A DNA stretch of 64,000 nt from Pyrinomonadaceae bacterium (GTDB lineage: Bacteria; Acidobacteriota; Blastocatellia; Pyrinomonadales; Pyrinomonadaceae): contig JAVEDP010000041.1 in the NCBI GenBank assembly GCA_030841085.1, positions 248,001 through 312,000 on the forward strand. Reading direction: 5' to 3'. The notes beneath the pieces were generated by a model, which worked only from the letters and a program-made list of their open reading frames with translations, did not search any database and had not been told where the DNA came from. This document shows, in pieces, positions 54,872-59,096 of the stretch. A program made the translations under genes and the position numbers. Positions within the stretch are counted from its first letter, which is position 1, and every line of letters begins with the position of its first letter.

Positions 54872-55081
54872 CTAGTTCTGTGGTGGTTCTTCGAATGCTG
54901 GGTTACATTTCGACAAGCACTTTCCGTAGGCGTCTGAGCAGGCGCGTCTGCAAGCCTGGTCGTTCCCGCAGTTGAAACTACAGTTGGCTTCAACGCTATC
55001 ACAGTTATCACTACAGATGCCTGGCTCAGCGGTAGATACGGGAGAAAGATAGTTTGTAAAGAGAACTACAGTAAGTAGCAT
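54872..55081 (-). CDS. Exported cysteine-rich mini-protein with four CxxxC motifs
   Basis: A 69-residue peptide: hydrophobic start (LLTVVLFTNYLSPVSTA) and a mature part with eight Cys in four CxxxC pairs (CSDNC, CSFNC, CRRAC, CLSKC) at regular 6-5-6 spacing, which would form disulphide-linked helices. ATG 55081 follows an amber codon (55084-55082) that is itself in frame with a better start at 55114 (AAGGGA before it). The natural reading may thus start 11 codons earlier, with the stop later acquired. No known family. Confidence 0.6.
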   Translation of the reverse strand: MLLTVVLFTNYLSPVSTAEPGICSDNCDSVEANCSFNCGNDQACRRACSDAYGKCLSKCNPAFEEPPQN

Positions 55082-55361: not shown

Positions 55362-55796
55362 TTAAAACCCGCGGGAGCTGCACATGGCGCAATGATCGCA
55401 AGGTTTACCACCCGGTTCGACGCTGCACGTTTTTTCTTTTTCGAAAAAGTCTACCAGCTCGGCAACCGTGGCTTCTTCAACGCCGAATTTTTCCTGACTC
55501 GGATGTGAATAAGAACTGTTGATGCCGGCTAACCAGGGTGAGTGGGTTGTGGGGGCCGATGGCGCGGCGGATGGAAACGAACTAATCGCAGCGGGTTGAC
55601 GGGAGGGTGTCGTTGTTATCTTCGCTTCTAACTGAGAAATCTTTCTTTGCAATTCACTGAGCCCGGCGCGGACTGCGGCAAGTTCCGAACTCACTTCGCC
55701 GGTTTGTTGTGGACGGATTGTTGGCGAGCTCTCGGCGGAAACGCGGCGAGCGATTCGTTCTGCAATCTCGCGAGCTTGATCTTGTTCGGTGGACAT
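55362..55796 (-). CDS. BMC-associated cysteine-rich coiled-coil protein, unknown
   Basis: A 144-residue protein not recognised. Residues 5-20 form an amphipathic helix (DQAREIAERIARRVSAES) like encapsulation peptides. Residues 36-60 are a coiled coil (SELAAVRAGLSELQRKISQL), then a Ser/Pro/Ala linker. The end has a helix (VEEATVAELVDFFEKEK) and Cys124, Cys133, Cys136 and Cys139 in the pattern CDHCAMC, which could bind an Fe-S cluster or metal. It is the last gene of the BMC locus, after a REP doublet. A role as cargo or adaptor is inference. Confidence 0.6.
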   Translation of the reverse strand: MSTEQDQAREIAERIARRVSAESSPTIRPQQTGEVSSELAAVRAGLSELQRKISQLEAKITTTPSRQPAAISSFPSAAPSAPTTHSPWLAGINSSYSHPSQEKFGVEEATVAELVDFFEKEKTCSVEPGGKPCDHCAMCSSRGF

Positions 55797-55800
55797 AAGC

Positions 55801-55893
55801 GTAAAGCAAACTGTTAGTTTGCGGACCGCAGTGAAAAATACCGTTGGAGAAAGAAGGCTAACTATCCCATCGCAAACTAATAGTTTGCTTTAC
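55801..55893. repeat. REP doublet, family A, copy 3
   Basis: Left arm 55801-55824 and right arm 55871-55893 are inverted copies with a 46-bp centre, inside the BMC locus between the cysteine-rich gene and a shell gene. Confidence 0.88.
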
Positions 55894-56162
55894 ATCAAAT
55901 CGATGCGGTCGACGACACCGACGATTGCTGAATCAATCGCCGCTTGCGGCTTTCCGGTTGCGGCGGTCGAGGCGCCCCAACCTTCCTGCACTATCAAAAC
56001 CGTATCGCCAACTCCCGAATCAACCGAGTCGAGCGCCAGGAGCGTGTAGGCCGTCTCTTCGCCTTCGGGCGTGATCTGCTGGCAAAGCATTATCCGCGCA
56101 TTGTCATAGCGCTGGTTTTTTTGCGAAGCAACAACGTTGCCAACGACTTTAGCGAGAATCAT
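55890..56162 (-). CDS. BMC pentameric shell protein (EutN/CcmL), BMC-P 3
   Basis: A 90-residue vertex protein (MILAKVVGNVVASQKNQRYD, VGDTVLIVQEGWGASTAATG, AAIDSAIVGVVDRIDL). Pentamers close the vertices of microcompartments. It starts 14 bp inside the end of the second vertex gene, so the two are translationally coupled. The last codons overlap the REP arm. Confidence 0.92.
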   Translation of the reverse strand: MILAKVVGNVVASQKNQRYDNARIMLCQQITPEGEETAYTLLALDSVDSGVGDTVLIVQEGWGASTAATGKPQAAIDSAIVGVVDRIDLM

Positions 56163-56463
56163 CCATTACCTGCCGGGCGGTTTTAGTCGATCCGTTGGTG
56201 ACGTGCGCATCTGAATCGACGATGCCGATAATTGTGCAGTCGGTGGGCGTGTCTTCCCGTTTGAAAGGAAAGCTGGCTTCTTTGCCGCGGCACCAAAAAA
56301 CCAACTCGCCAACTCCGGCGCCAACAGCATCGACCGCTACCATCGGTTTTCCGTTCGGCTGCAGATCTTTGTTCAAGGTTTGCACGACCAAAAGTTTGCG
56401 ACCTTCAAGCGCTTCGTTCTTGATGGTTGCTACCACAGTGCCAATGACGCGTGCCAGTTGCAT
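56149..56463 (-). CDS. BMC pentameric shell protein (EutN/CcmL), BMC-P 2
   Basis: A 104-residue EutN/CcmL protein (QLARVIGTVVATIKNEALEG, MVAVDAVGAGVGELVFWCRG, TDCTIIGIVDSDAHV). It has an extended C-terminus (TNGSTKTARQVMDDSR) relative to the other two. It is the middle of three vertex genes and overlaps the next by 14 bp. It lies after a REP doublet that separates it from the first. Confidence 0.92.
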   Translation of the reverse strand: MQLARVIGTVVATIKNEALEGRKLLVVQTLNKDLQPNGKPMVAVDAVGAGVGELVFWCRGKEASFPFKREDTPTDCTIIGIVDSDAHVTNGSTKTARQVMDDSR

Positions 56464-56467
56464 ATCT

Positions 56468-56527
56468 TAGTGGCACAGACTTTAGTCTGTGTATCGTTCA
56501 AAGAGCACAGACTGAAGTCTATGCTAC
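56468..56527. repeat. REP doublet, family E
   Basis: Left arm 56468-56491 (CACAGACTTTAGTCTGTG hairpin) and right arm 56503-56527 are inverted with three mismatches, 11 bp apart. It sits between the first and second vertex genes. Confidence 0.75.
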
Positions 56528-56799
56528 TCCGGTTGCGCTATGTCCACCGTATCAATCACGCCGACGATTGCGGCATCCACCGGCGTGTCTTTCATGCCCT
56601 GCGCCAGTCGCGCGCTCGAGCCCGCGACTACCAACACGCGTTCATGAAAGCCCGCCCCGACAGTATCGACAGCAACCACATAGCCGGTCGTATCGCTACC
56701 ATCAACGTTAATGGGACGCACGATCAGCAATTTCTTGCCGAGTAATCGTTCGTCCTTCTGCGATGAAACAACTGTTCCGAGGATGCGCGCGATGATCAT
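56524..56799 (-). CDS. BMC pentameric shell protein (EutN/CcmL), BMC-P 1
   Basis: A 91-residue vertex protein (MIIARILGTVVSSQKDERLL, VVAVDTVGAGFHERVLVVAG, VDAAIVGVIDTVDIAQ). Its start lies two bases after the hexamer gene. Three BMC-P paralogues in a locus are typical of the planctomycete/verrucomicrobial type (PVM) of microcompartment, as I recall. Confidence 0.93.
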   Translation of the reverse strand: MIIARILGTVVSSQKDERLLGKKLLIVRPINVDGSDTTGYVVAVDTVGAGFHERVLVVAGSSARLAQGMKDTPVDAAIVGVIDTVDIAQPE

Positions 56800-56801
56800 G
56801 C

Positions 56802-57083
56802 TTAGCCGCGATTGCCGATAGGAAGCGCATCGTCAACACTGCCATGTGGGCGTGGGATAACATGCACGCTGACCAATTCGCCAACGCGCCGGGCGGCAGC
56901 CGCACCAGCATCAGTCGCGGCTTTAACCGCCGCCACATCGCCGCGCACGATTGCAGTAACAAAGCCCGCGCCAATTTTTTCATAGCCGATCAGCGTTACG
57001 TTTGCGGCCTTGACCATGGCGTCGGCAGCTTCGATCATCGCAACCAGGCCTTTAGTTTCAACCATACCGAGTGCTTCTTGCAT
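56802..57083 (-). CDS. BMC hexameric shell protein (BMC-H)
   Basis: A 93-residue single-domain BMC protein ([40 protein letters not shown]). The pore loop reads KIGAG at 36-40 where carboxysome CcmK reads KIGSG, so the hexamer pore may differ in charge and size. It would tile the facets of the compartment shell. It is followed by the three BMC-P genes. There is only one hexamer gene in the window. Confidence 0.95.
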
Positions 57084-57293: not shown

Positions 57294-58115
57294 TTACCGG
57301 CTTTGCAGCACCGCCTGCGCCAGCAGTTCCATCAACTCTTCTCGCGTCAACGTGATTTTTCCTGCGCCGTTCGCCGGCGTTGCGTTTGGATAAACAGTCG
57401 GCGGGGGACGGTCGCCCGTGGGACAAGTCAACTGTGTTTCGTGCAGGTAGCCGCAAGCCTGACAACGCGCGCTTTCGCCGAGATAACCTGCGGCTTCGCG
57501 CACGTTGATTAGTTTTTCGATCGCGTCAGCAGGCAAATTTTTTGAGCCGCCGAGCATCCTCGCCAGAATCGCAATACGAGCTGTGTGTTCCAAGGTCTCC
57601 AGCCTGTCGAATGCCTGCCAAAGATCCGAACCATAAGCCACCGCGCCGTGGTTGGCCATCAACAATGCGTTGTGATGTTTGACCAGCGGACGCATGGCTT
57701 CGGTCAGTTCGTCGGTTGAAGGCGTTCCGTAAGCCGCAAGCGGAACACAGCCGAGGGTCAGAATAACTTCAGACAGAATCGGTTGATCGATCGGCAAGCC
57801 GGCGACGGCAAACGCGGTCCCGTGCGGAGGGTGAGCATGACAGACCGCTTTCACATCCGGACGCTCATGGTAAATCAGCAAATGCATCGCCAACTCGCTC
57901 GATGGCCTGCGCTGCGTTAAAGGTTTCCCCGAGGCATCTGTCACGGCCAGCGCGTCTTCTGTCATGCGGCCTTTGCACATCATGGTTGGCGTCGCCACGA
58001 TGCGGCCATCGTCGAGGCGCGCGCTGACGTTGCCGTCGGAAGAAACGACGTAGCTGCGCGCGTACAGTAAATTTCCGATCTCCACTATTTCGCGCCGTGC
58101 GGTTTGCTCGTCCAT
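57294..58115 (-). CDS. Class II aldolase (L-fuculose-phosphate aldolase type) with probable encapsulation tail
   Basis: A 273-residue class II aldolase/adducin protein. Zinc and catalytic residues match FucA: E74, H93 and H95 (HAHPPH) and H156 (MANHGAV), where E. coli FucA has E73, H92, H94 and H155. After residue 215 comes a Cys pair with a third Cys (CQACGYLHETQLTC) and a Pro/Ala linker. It ends with an amphipathic helix (KITLTREELMELLAQAVLQS), a typical BMC encapsulation peptide. It would cleave fuculose- or rhamnulose-type phosphates to lactaldehyde in the compartment. The substrate is inferred. Confidence 0.9.
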   Translation of the reverse strand: MDEQTARREIVEIGNLLYARSYVVSSDGNVSARLDDGRIVATPTMMCKGRMTEDALAVTDASGKPLTQRRPSSELAMHLLIYHERPDVKAVCHAHPPHGTAFAVAGLPIDQPILSEVILTLGCVPLAAYGTPSTDELTEAMRPLVKHHNALLMANHGAVAYGSDLWQAFDRLETLEHTARIAILARMLGGSKNLPADAIEKLINVREAAGYLGESARCQACGYLHETQLTCPTGDRPPPTVYPNATPANGAGKITLTREELMELLAQAVLQSR

Positions 58116-58211: not shown

Positions 58212-58922
58212 CTACTTCAACTCTTGCTCGTTGATTTCGTCTAACTTTTCAAACTGCTGCTTGTGTGTGCGGGTTGTCGTCACTTTGGACTGCGGCCGCG
58301 CCAGGAAAAAAGACAGCGACTCGAGCGAGGTCGTCAAATCCACCGTCTTCACTTTTACATCAAGCCGTGCGCTGAGCGGCGCCGGCGCGAAATTCAAAAT
58401 CGCCTTGATGCCCGCCGACATGATTTGGTTGAGAACTTTTTGCGCAACGCGCGCGGGCACGGCAATCACCATCACATCGATTGATTGCTGCTTGACCACA
58501 AGCGGCATCCTTTTCACGTTGTGAATGGCAATCTCGTCTTCACCAATGCGCCGTCCAATTTTCTCTTCATCGTCATCAAAGATTGCGACTACCGTAAAGT
58601 TTGATTTCGAAAAGCCGCGGTAGTTCGCCAGCGCTGTACCCAGACGCCCGGCGCCAACAATGCCGACTCGATGCGGTTTATCCAACCCCAAAATCTTGGT
58701 GATGTGGGCGCGCAGATCGGCGACGTAATAGCCGACGCCGCGCACGCCAAACTCGCCAAAGTAGCCCAAATCCTTCCTGATTTGCGCGGAATTTAGATTG
58801 AACTGTTCGGCCAGCGCCTGTGACGAAATGGTCTTTATGCCGGCAGCAGCGAGCGTATTCAGACAGCGCAGGTAAACGCTCAACCGGTTGGTAGTCAGTT
58901 CGGAAATTTTCTCTGATTTCAT
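58212..58922 (-). CDS. rex: Redox-sensing transcriptional repressor Rex
   Basis: A 236-residue Rex: a winged-helix N-terminus (TTNRLSVYLRCLNTL, IRKDLGYFGEFGVRGVGY) and a Rossmann domain (RVGIVGAGRLGTALANYRGF) that binds NADH. Rex releases DNA when NADH is high. ATG 58922 is the family start; the longer frame encodes the heptamer array. It lies 96 bp upstream of the aldolase gene on the same strand, suggesting redox control of the BMC locus. No clear Rex operator was found. Confidence 0.92.
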   Translation of the reverse strand: MKSEKISELTTNRLSVYLRCLNTLAAAGIKTISSQALAEQFNLNSAQIRKDLGYFGEFGVRGVGYYVADLRAHITKILGLDKPHRVGIVGAGRLGTALANYRGFSKSNFTVVAIFDDDEEKIGRRIGEDEIAIHNVKRMPLVVKQQSIDVMVIAVPARVAQKVLNQIMSAGIKAILNFAPAPLSARLDVKVKTVDLTTSLESLSFFLARPQSKVTTTRTHKQQFEKLDEINEQELK

Positions 58923-58962
58923 TTCGAGGGCCTGACGGTAAGTATAGACCCAATGTGAAATA

Positions 58963-59096
58963 GTTTCGAGTTGCGAGTTTCGAGTTTCAAGTTGCGGTAT
59001 CCGAGGTAACTCGTCTGGCCCACAACCAACGCCCACGGACAGCAGCGCGAACCAACAAACTCCAAACTCGAAACCCGAAACTCGAAACTTGGAACT
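58963..59096. repeat. Inverted pair of 7-bp-period arrays between rex and ruvA
   Basis: GTTTCGA, GTTGCGA, GTTTCGA, GTTTCAA, GTTGCGG (58963-58997) face a reverse-complement array (CTCGAAA type) at 59055-59096. The arrays lie in the divergent spacer of rex and ruvA. Confidence 0.85.

Follow-up and report, generated by a model that had tools for sequence, protein, structure and literature searches.

The ACI type of BMC, as described by Sutter et al. (2021, PMC8217296), occurs in Acidobacteria and combines a class II aldolase that has a C-terminal encapsulation-peptide-like helix with a BMC-P triplet and BMC-H, an AldDH in a satellite locus, and a D-2-hydroxyacid dehydrogenase as the candidate NAD-recycling enzyme. 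Its describers also mention "several proteins of unknown function", and in the parts of the literature considered here no substrate, assembly factor or redox partner is named for this compartment of soil Acidobacteria. In the PDU system, PduM is a low-abundance protein with a functional N-terminal signal sequence that helps to join core and shell (PMC12108088, PMC9132943). PduK homologues of GRM4 loci carry a tetracysteine motif on a long flexible linker near the C-terminus, for which an Fe-S centre has been proposed, and the Fe-S proteins PduS, PduT and GrpU of other BMCs hold clusters that appear to be O2-sensitive (PMC6325248).

The window, a 64,000-nucleotide stretch of DNA from a Pyrinomonadaceae genome, contains a locus of the known ACI type. 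Its operon encodes Rex, a class II aldolase, BMC-H and three BMC-P proteins and ends with a previously unnamed gene, here called CysP, of which no description was found in the open-access literature, including the accessible part of the report on the ACI type (PMC8217296). The locus shares with the described type the aldolase and its helix, the BMC-P triplet, BMC-H and the acidobacterial host, and an AldDH is present in a satellite locus of the same genome, on contig C27 with BMC-H and BMC-P; it differs in that the hydroxyacid dehydrogenase of the type is missing from the window operon (PMC8217296). The features of the operon and of the CysP protein are as follows.

58212..58922, minus strand: Rex redox-sensing repressor (ATG at 58922 chosen; mechanical open reading frame 58212-59036)
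57294..58115, minus strand: class II aldolase with a Cys-containing linker and a C-terminal encapsulation-peptide-like helix (PF00596, 7.5e-47)
56802..57083, minus strand: BMC-H shell hexamer protein, EutM-like (PF00936, 8.1e-31; NF012018 above cut-off)
56524..56799, minus strand: first BMC-P (PF03319, 1.5e-29)
56149..56463, minus strand: second BMC-P (PF03319, 1.4e-31)
55890..56162, minus strand: third BMC-P, the pentamer gene directly upstream of CysP (PF03319, 8.7e-21)
55362..55796, minus strand: CysP gene, 144 aa (open reading frame and orthologues)
55728..55790, minus strand: N-terminal helix of CysP, encapsulation-peptide-like, residues 3-23 (AlphaFold2 helix; pattern IAERIARRV)
55611..55703, minus strand: predicted coiled coil, residues 32-62 (AlphaFold2 helix and heptads; absent from short relatives in other lineages)
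55506..55610, minus strand: variable Pro/Ser/Ala linker, residues 63-97 (alignment; pLDDT mostly <50)
55434..55505, minus strand: HPSQEKF motif and second helix, residues 98-121 (alignment; AlphaFold2 helix at 108-121)
55365..55427, minus strand: four-cysteine tail CSVEPGGKPCDHCAMCSSRGF, residues 124-144, at the extreme C-terminus (130 distinct tails)

Operon and host genome

No hydroxyacid dehydrogenase (PF00389/PF02826) was found in the window operon, and the two strong 2-hydroxyacid dehydrogenase matches of the genome lie elsewhere, with no BMC genes beside them in the stretches of sequence inspected. A PduL-type phosphotransacylase (PF06130) was not found in the genome either, despite the aldolase/AldDH character of its BMC. 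The satellite locus (L160:708-4173 on contig C27) comprises BMC-H, AldDH, BMC-P and an ACT-domain protein; this AldDH carries an internal encapsulation-like helix and a C-terminal SEDDVR stretch, and the ACT-domain protein has an encapsulation-like N-terminus. The RpiB of the genome (ribose-5-phosphate isomerase B; L175, region C15:196854-196994) combines an N-terminal encapsulation-like helix with an ITEDDVR domain similar to the C-terminal parts of both the TIGR02536 and the PduM model. In the window operon, the aldolase linker ARCQ[AS]CGYL...C, located before the C-terminal helix, is kept in most Pyrinomonadaceae and degraded in three loci (L044, L045 and L046), and it represents a possible second metal site in the compartment.

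The CysP gene

The CysP frame runs from ATG to TAA over exactly 55362-55796 of the minus strand and encodes 144 aa, while the plus strand of the same span is interrupted by stops. The cysteines are residues 124, 133, 136 and 139, giving the arrangement C-x8-C-x2-C-x2-C with the last Cys 5 residues from the C-terminus. The 144-aa protein with a C-terminal CxxCxxC and a fourth Cys that was reported in the initial annotation therefore exists, on the minus strand, and its fourth Cys (C124) is located upstream of the motif. A second genomic match of the CDHCxxC pattern was set aside, as it overlies the frame of another gene and is not read as CDHC there.

A chance frame or a decaying gene would be in keeping with the start of CysP, where no recognisable Shine-Dalgarno sequence precedes the ATG. 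The likelihood of this explanation is nonetheless negligible, given that CysP has relatives in 39 of the 59 genomes from the window's own surroundings (own genome included) and that, in the tail codons of 58 Pyrinomonadaceae-like rows, synonymous changes occur at every codon but Met while the residues remain constant. Relatives were also located at 39 loci of a genome collection, a cultured species, Pyrinomonas methylaliphatogenes (L057), is among the carriers of the gene, and wherever upstream DNA was included the gene order was the third BMC-P followed by CysP. Orthologues in the same place, synonymous variation and membership of a BMC operon establish CysP as a real gene, far beyond chance.

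The spacer between the third BMC-P gene and CysP contains a palindrome pair, GCAAACTNNYAGTTTGC, at 55806-55822 and 55872-55888. It belongs to a REP-like genome-wide repeat, the copies of which are often paired about 58 bases apart, with 263 forward-strand matches in the genome compared to 0 for a reversed control pattern. Downstream of CysP, a 69-aa frame at 54872-55081 of the minus strand would encode a small protein that is rich in Cys and begins like a signal peptide.

Protein architecture and family relationships

AlphaFold2 modelling of CysP from a 34-row alignment gave low overall confidence (mean pLDDT 65, pTM 0.24), with helices at residues 3-23, 32-62, 108-121 and 134-140 and confident prediction only at residues 1-20 and 40-60. 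The coiled coil described initially is present in the window protein according to this model and to heptad residues L39, V42, L46, L49, I53, L56 and I60, but the core layout does without it. Outside Blastocatellia, CysP is often 70-102 aa in length, the helix being followed by a linker, the motif H-x-S and then the tail (e.g., L113, a 70-aa form, L115, L131 and L135), and only the N-terminal helix and the tail are constant across the family. Since the short relatives of other classes lack the coil, it is a lineage addition.

The N-terminal helix is a probable encapsulation helix, based on its residue pattern. BMC signal sequences display paired hydrophobic and hydrophilic residues (PMC12108088), and this paired pattern was identified in 26 of 34 CysP N-termini (related rows) compared to 0.4 expected from shuffles, and in 6 of 25 members of a divergent set compared to 0.68 expected. 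In a plain hydrophobic-moment test, however, no more than 7 of 33 rows reached significance, and the encapsulation-like character first attributed to the helix holds only as a resemblance. Of four cargo helices in the same genome, that of RpiB alone has the CysP-type pairing.

The earlier statement that no known family has this layout agrees with the Pfam and NCBIfam libraries, in which the window protein matched no family, and comparison with solved structures returned coiled-coil noise only. A hit to PspA/IM30 (PF04012) reached 18.3 bits against a gathering score of 33.9 and covered residues 6-70 only, and it was dismissed as coiled-coil similarity together with weak matches to DUF6779 and MscS-porin. 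The middle of one Blastocatellia relative, L103, corresponds to a TIGR02536 domain (model positions 5-158, 1.4e-9), although its 37.9 bits fall below the curated cut-off of 152.6 bits; weaker traces were detected in L132 (0.0066) and L210 (0.071), and the window CysP gave no match to this model. TIGR02536, the "eut_hyp" ethanolamine utilization protein, resembles CysP in being BMC-associated by name and in its match to L103, but its last 50 positions form another domain where L103 has the Cys tail. This terminal domain is also found on RpiB here, with a similar stretch at the C-terminus of AldDH. Interpretation of positions 158-206 as a ferredoxin-type domain was ruled out, as several of the matched frames are N-terminal extensions of RpiB, and a plasmid search with the L103 protein gave no match. 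CysP connects acidobacterial BMCs with the poorly understood TIGR02536/PduM group.

Distribution and association with shell genes

Among 395 Acidobacteriota genomes, BMC-P genes (PF03319) were identified in 167 and CysP in 42 with a 44-row profile (A1). A profile that includes divergent members (A3) identified CysP in 91, a recall that is partly by construction because some of its rows came from genomes later counted, which does not apply to its agreement with PF03319. All 91 CysP-positive genomes belong to the 167 that carry BMC-P genes, and CysP was found in 0 of the 228 BMC-P-negative genomes; in Acidobacteriota CysP is linked to BMC genes, and the wide occurrence without them that the initial annotation named as contrary evidence was not observed. 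Fisher tests gave p 3e-43 by genome, which is only indicative as the genomes are related, and p 9e-20 for a genus-level count of 56/212 against 113/212, again only indicative. The sole A1 match in a genome without BMC-P genes (G306) was discarded, because the match fell on the coil within a 596-aa frame.

Searches of Acidobacteriota for the tail, in the manner of the profile search for the Cys motif suggested at the outset as a check, yielded 130 distinct tails, and 120 of these come directly after a shell gene. A further 6 lie at a contig edge, and the 4 relatives with no adjoining shell gene have shell genes about 28 kb off by contig position. In some members of one genus (L207 and L208), the tail gene is located about 28 kb from the shell genes on the same contig.

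CysP is not universal in acidobacterial BMCs. A set of 40 BMC-P loci, chosen by hand and drawn almost exclusively from A1-negative genomes (G057 has an A1 match, elsewhere), comprised 14 with the tail, 2 at contig ends, 6 of the RpiB/AldDH type, 2 others, 8 split loci and 8 tail-less triplets. Because the tail gene is absent from these 8 full BMC-P triplet loci (L117, L125, L133, L141, L147, L148, L149 and L151) and from the P2/P3 stretches of split loci (families f4 and f7, G036 and G047), the shell does not strictly depend on CysP. The protein is a marker for a large part of the ACI type.

The four-cysteine tail

Profile and pattern searches produced 187 matches, of which 184 have full tails; the 3 left out, the only ones without a full tail, are truncated frames. 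After collapsing to 130 distinct tails, the family consensus is C-x2-E/D-x4/5-C-x2-[C/S/H]-x2/3-C-x3-G-[F/H/Y/L]. C124, C133, C139 and G143 are present in all 130, and position 127 is E in 123 and D in 7. Position 136 is C in 121, S in 8 and H in 1, a count open to bias in that the pattern-derived matches required C, S or H there, a limit that does not apply to the matches of the two profiles. The terminal residue is F (82), H (43), Y (3) or L (2), and the tail is preceded by HPS in 77 cases, by H-x-S in 31 and by neither in 22. The 17 non-Cys tail positions have a mean identity of 83% (24 full loci); the whole of CysP is 47% identical compared to 75% for the third BMC-P (26 loci, nearly the same set, with one truncated CysP included).

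Judging by this conservation, the tail probably holds a metal. Position 136 is a likely ligand, because C, S or H occupies it in 130 of 130 tails but only 16% of positions in the 36 residues before the tail, with the caveat that a Cys-to-Ser change is also common at non-ligand sites. H135 and M138 were ruled out as ligands, as both vary outside the Pyrinomonadaceae-like set. The metal may be Fe-S or Zn. In the 58 Pyrinomonadaceae-like tails the non-ligand residues D134, M138, P128 and G143 are also fixed, which exceeds the needs of a bare metal loop and suggests a docking surface.

Docking could also be achieved by a metal-free tail, the cysteines acting as thiols in a disulfide staple or in a covalent or thiol contact to shell or cargo. 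The position of the tail at the extreme C-terminus, its invariant Gly, the F or H that closes it in 125 of the 130 cases and the adjoining pentamer genes are all compatible with such a peptide, yet we consider it improbable: position 136 is limited to C, S and H, of which His is not readily explained by a thiol role, and cysteines spaced as closely as C-x2-C-x2-C typically mark a metal site.

The initial annotation proposed an Fe-S centre for electron transfer or for the NAD recycling that the locus otherwise lacks. In that case the tail would bind an Fe-S cluster, [4Fe-4S] or of another type, and CysP would be an encapsulated electron relay from NADH or a lumen enzyme. [4Fe-4S] clusters are usually ligated by CxxCxxC together with an additional Cys; the first gene of the operon encodes the redox regulator Rex, and the dehydrogenases of the genome are apart from its BMC genes in the stretches inspected, as described above. 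Fe-S proteins of other BMCs (PduS, PduT and GrpU) and the tetracysteine tail of PduK, already noted as a possible Fe-S holder, provide precedents (PMC6325248, PMC4207490). This relay is the main rival to the adaptor role proposed below, although on balance we judge it unlikely, since Ser or His replaces Cys at position 136 in 9 of 130 tails and the lack of NAD recycling, while true of the window operon, does not extend to the family. Of 13 tail loci outside Blastocatellia (a count without L114 and L132, whose Ser-type tails were not caught by the motif used), 9 have a D-2-hydroxyacid dehydrogenase gene next to that of the tail protein, and the co-occurrence of both genes also rules out CysP as a substitute for that enzyme. 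The fixed non-ligand residues of the tail would be unusual in a simple electron carrier. The acidobacterial hosts are soil bacteria, mostly aerobic, and the apparent O2 sensitivity noted above for the clusters of PduS, PduT and GrpU therefore weighs against a relay of this kind.

A stronger form of the Fe-S reading, slightly less probable still, is that CysP constitutes a new class of minimal BMC metalloprotein, in which a linker connects an encapsulation helix to an autonomous Fe-S tail of 20 residues, the whole being as short as 70 residues. Such a protein would provide the electron wiring of the lumen of this compartment, in soil bacteria that are abundant.

Proposed role and comparison with known BMC proteins

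Taking the observed context, conservation and architecture together, we infer, tentatively and at somewhat under even chances, that CysP is an encapsulated adaptor of the ACI-type BMC with a metal-binding tail. Its N-terminal helix would act as an encapsulation (signal) peptide joining the enzyme core, and the flexible middle would set spacing or oligomerisation, with a coil in Pyrinomonadaceae, hardly more than a linker at many loci in other classes, and a TIGR02536/PduM-like domain in some branches. The tail would fold around one metal centre through C124, C133, C139 and mostly also C136, and its fixed surface would be the docking site for an enzyme or a protein of the shell. Constant ends, an exchangeable middle and a fixed tail surface are the evolution to be expected of a two-ended adaptor. 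The tail would be either a new kind of module that docks core and shell or a minimal metal centre inside the compartment.

With respect to characterised redox proteins, an Fe-S tail would resemble PduS, PduT and GrpU in bringing a metal redox centre to a BMC (PMC6325248). PduS is a flavoenzyme, however, and PduT and GrpU are shell proteins with pore cysteines, unlike CysP, and family searches revealed no similarity of any of the three to CysP.

The nearest characterised architecture is that of PduM, a small BMC protein with an N-terminal signal helix whose gene, in a Kosakonia locus, likewise adjoins a BMC-P gene, but which lacks the Cys tail in the one PduM sequence compared. The sequence relation, to which TIGR02536 provides a thin bridge, is weak: a single BLASTP comparison of PduM with L103 aligned 39 aa at 31% (E 0.004 for this one comparison), PduM and L210 gave no alignment, L103 returned nothing up to E 10 against TIGR04493, the model for PduM, and the window CysP did not match this model (cut-off 50 bits), for which a PduM control scored 175.5 bits.

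The tail itself has a counterpart in PduK, where a tetracysteine motif also lies near the C-terminus on a long flexible linker (PMC6325248). PduK differs in being a BMC-H shell protein, and a Kosakonia BMC protein presumed to be PduK has the spacing C-x2-C-x4-C-x10-C compared to C-x7/8-C-x2-C-x2-C in CysP. The adaptor proposed here is thus modelled by analogy on both proteins, combining a signal helix like that of PduM with a tetracysteine tail like that of PduK.
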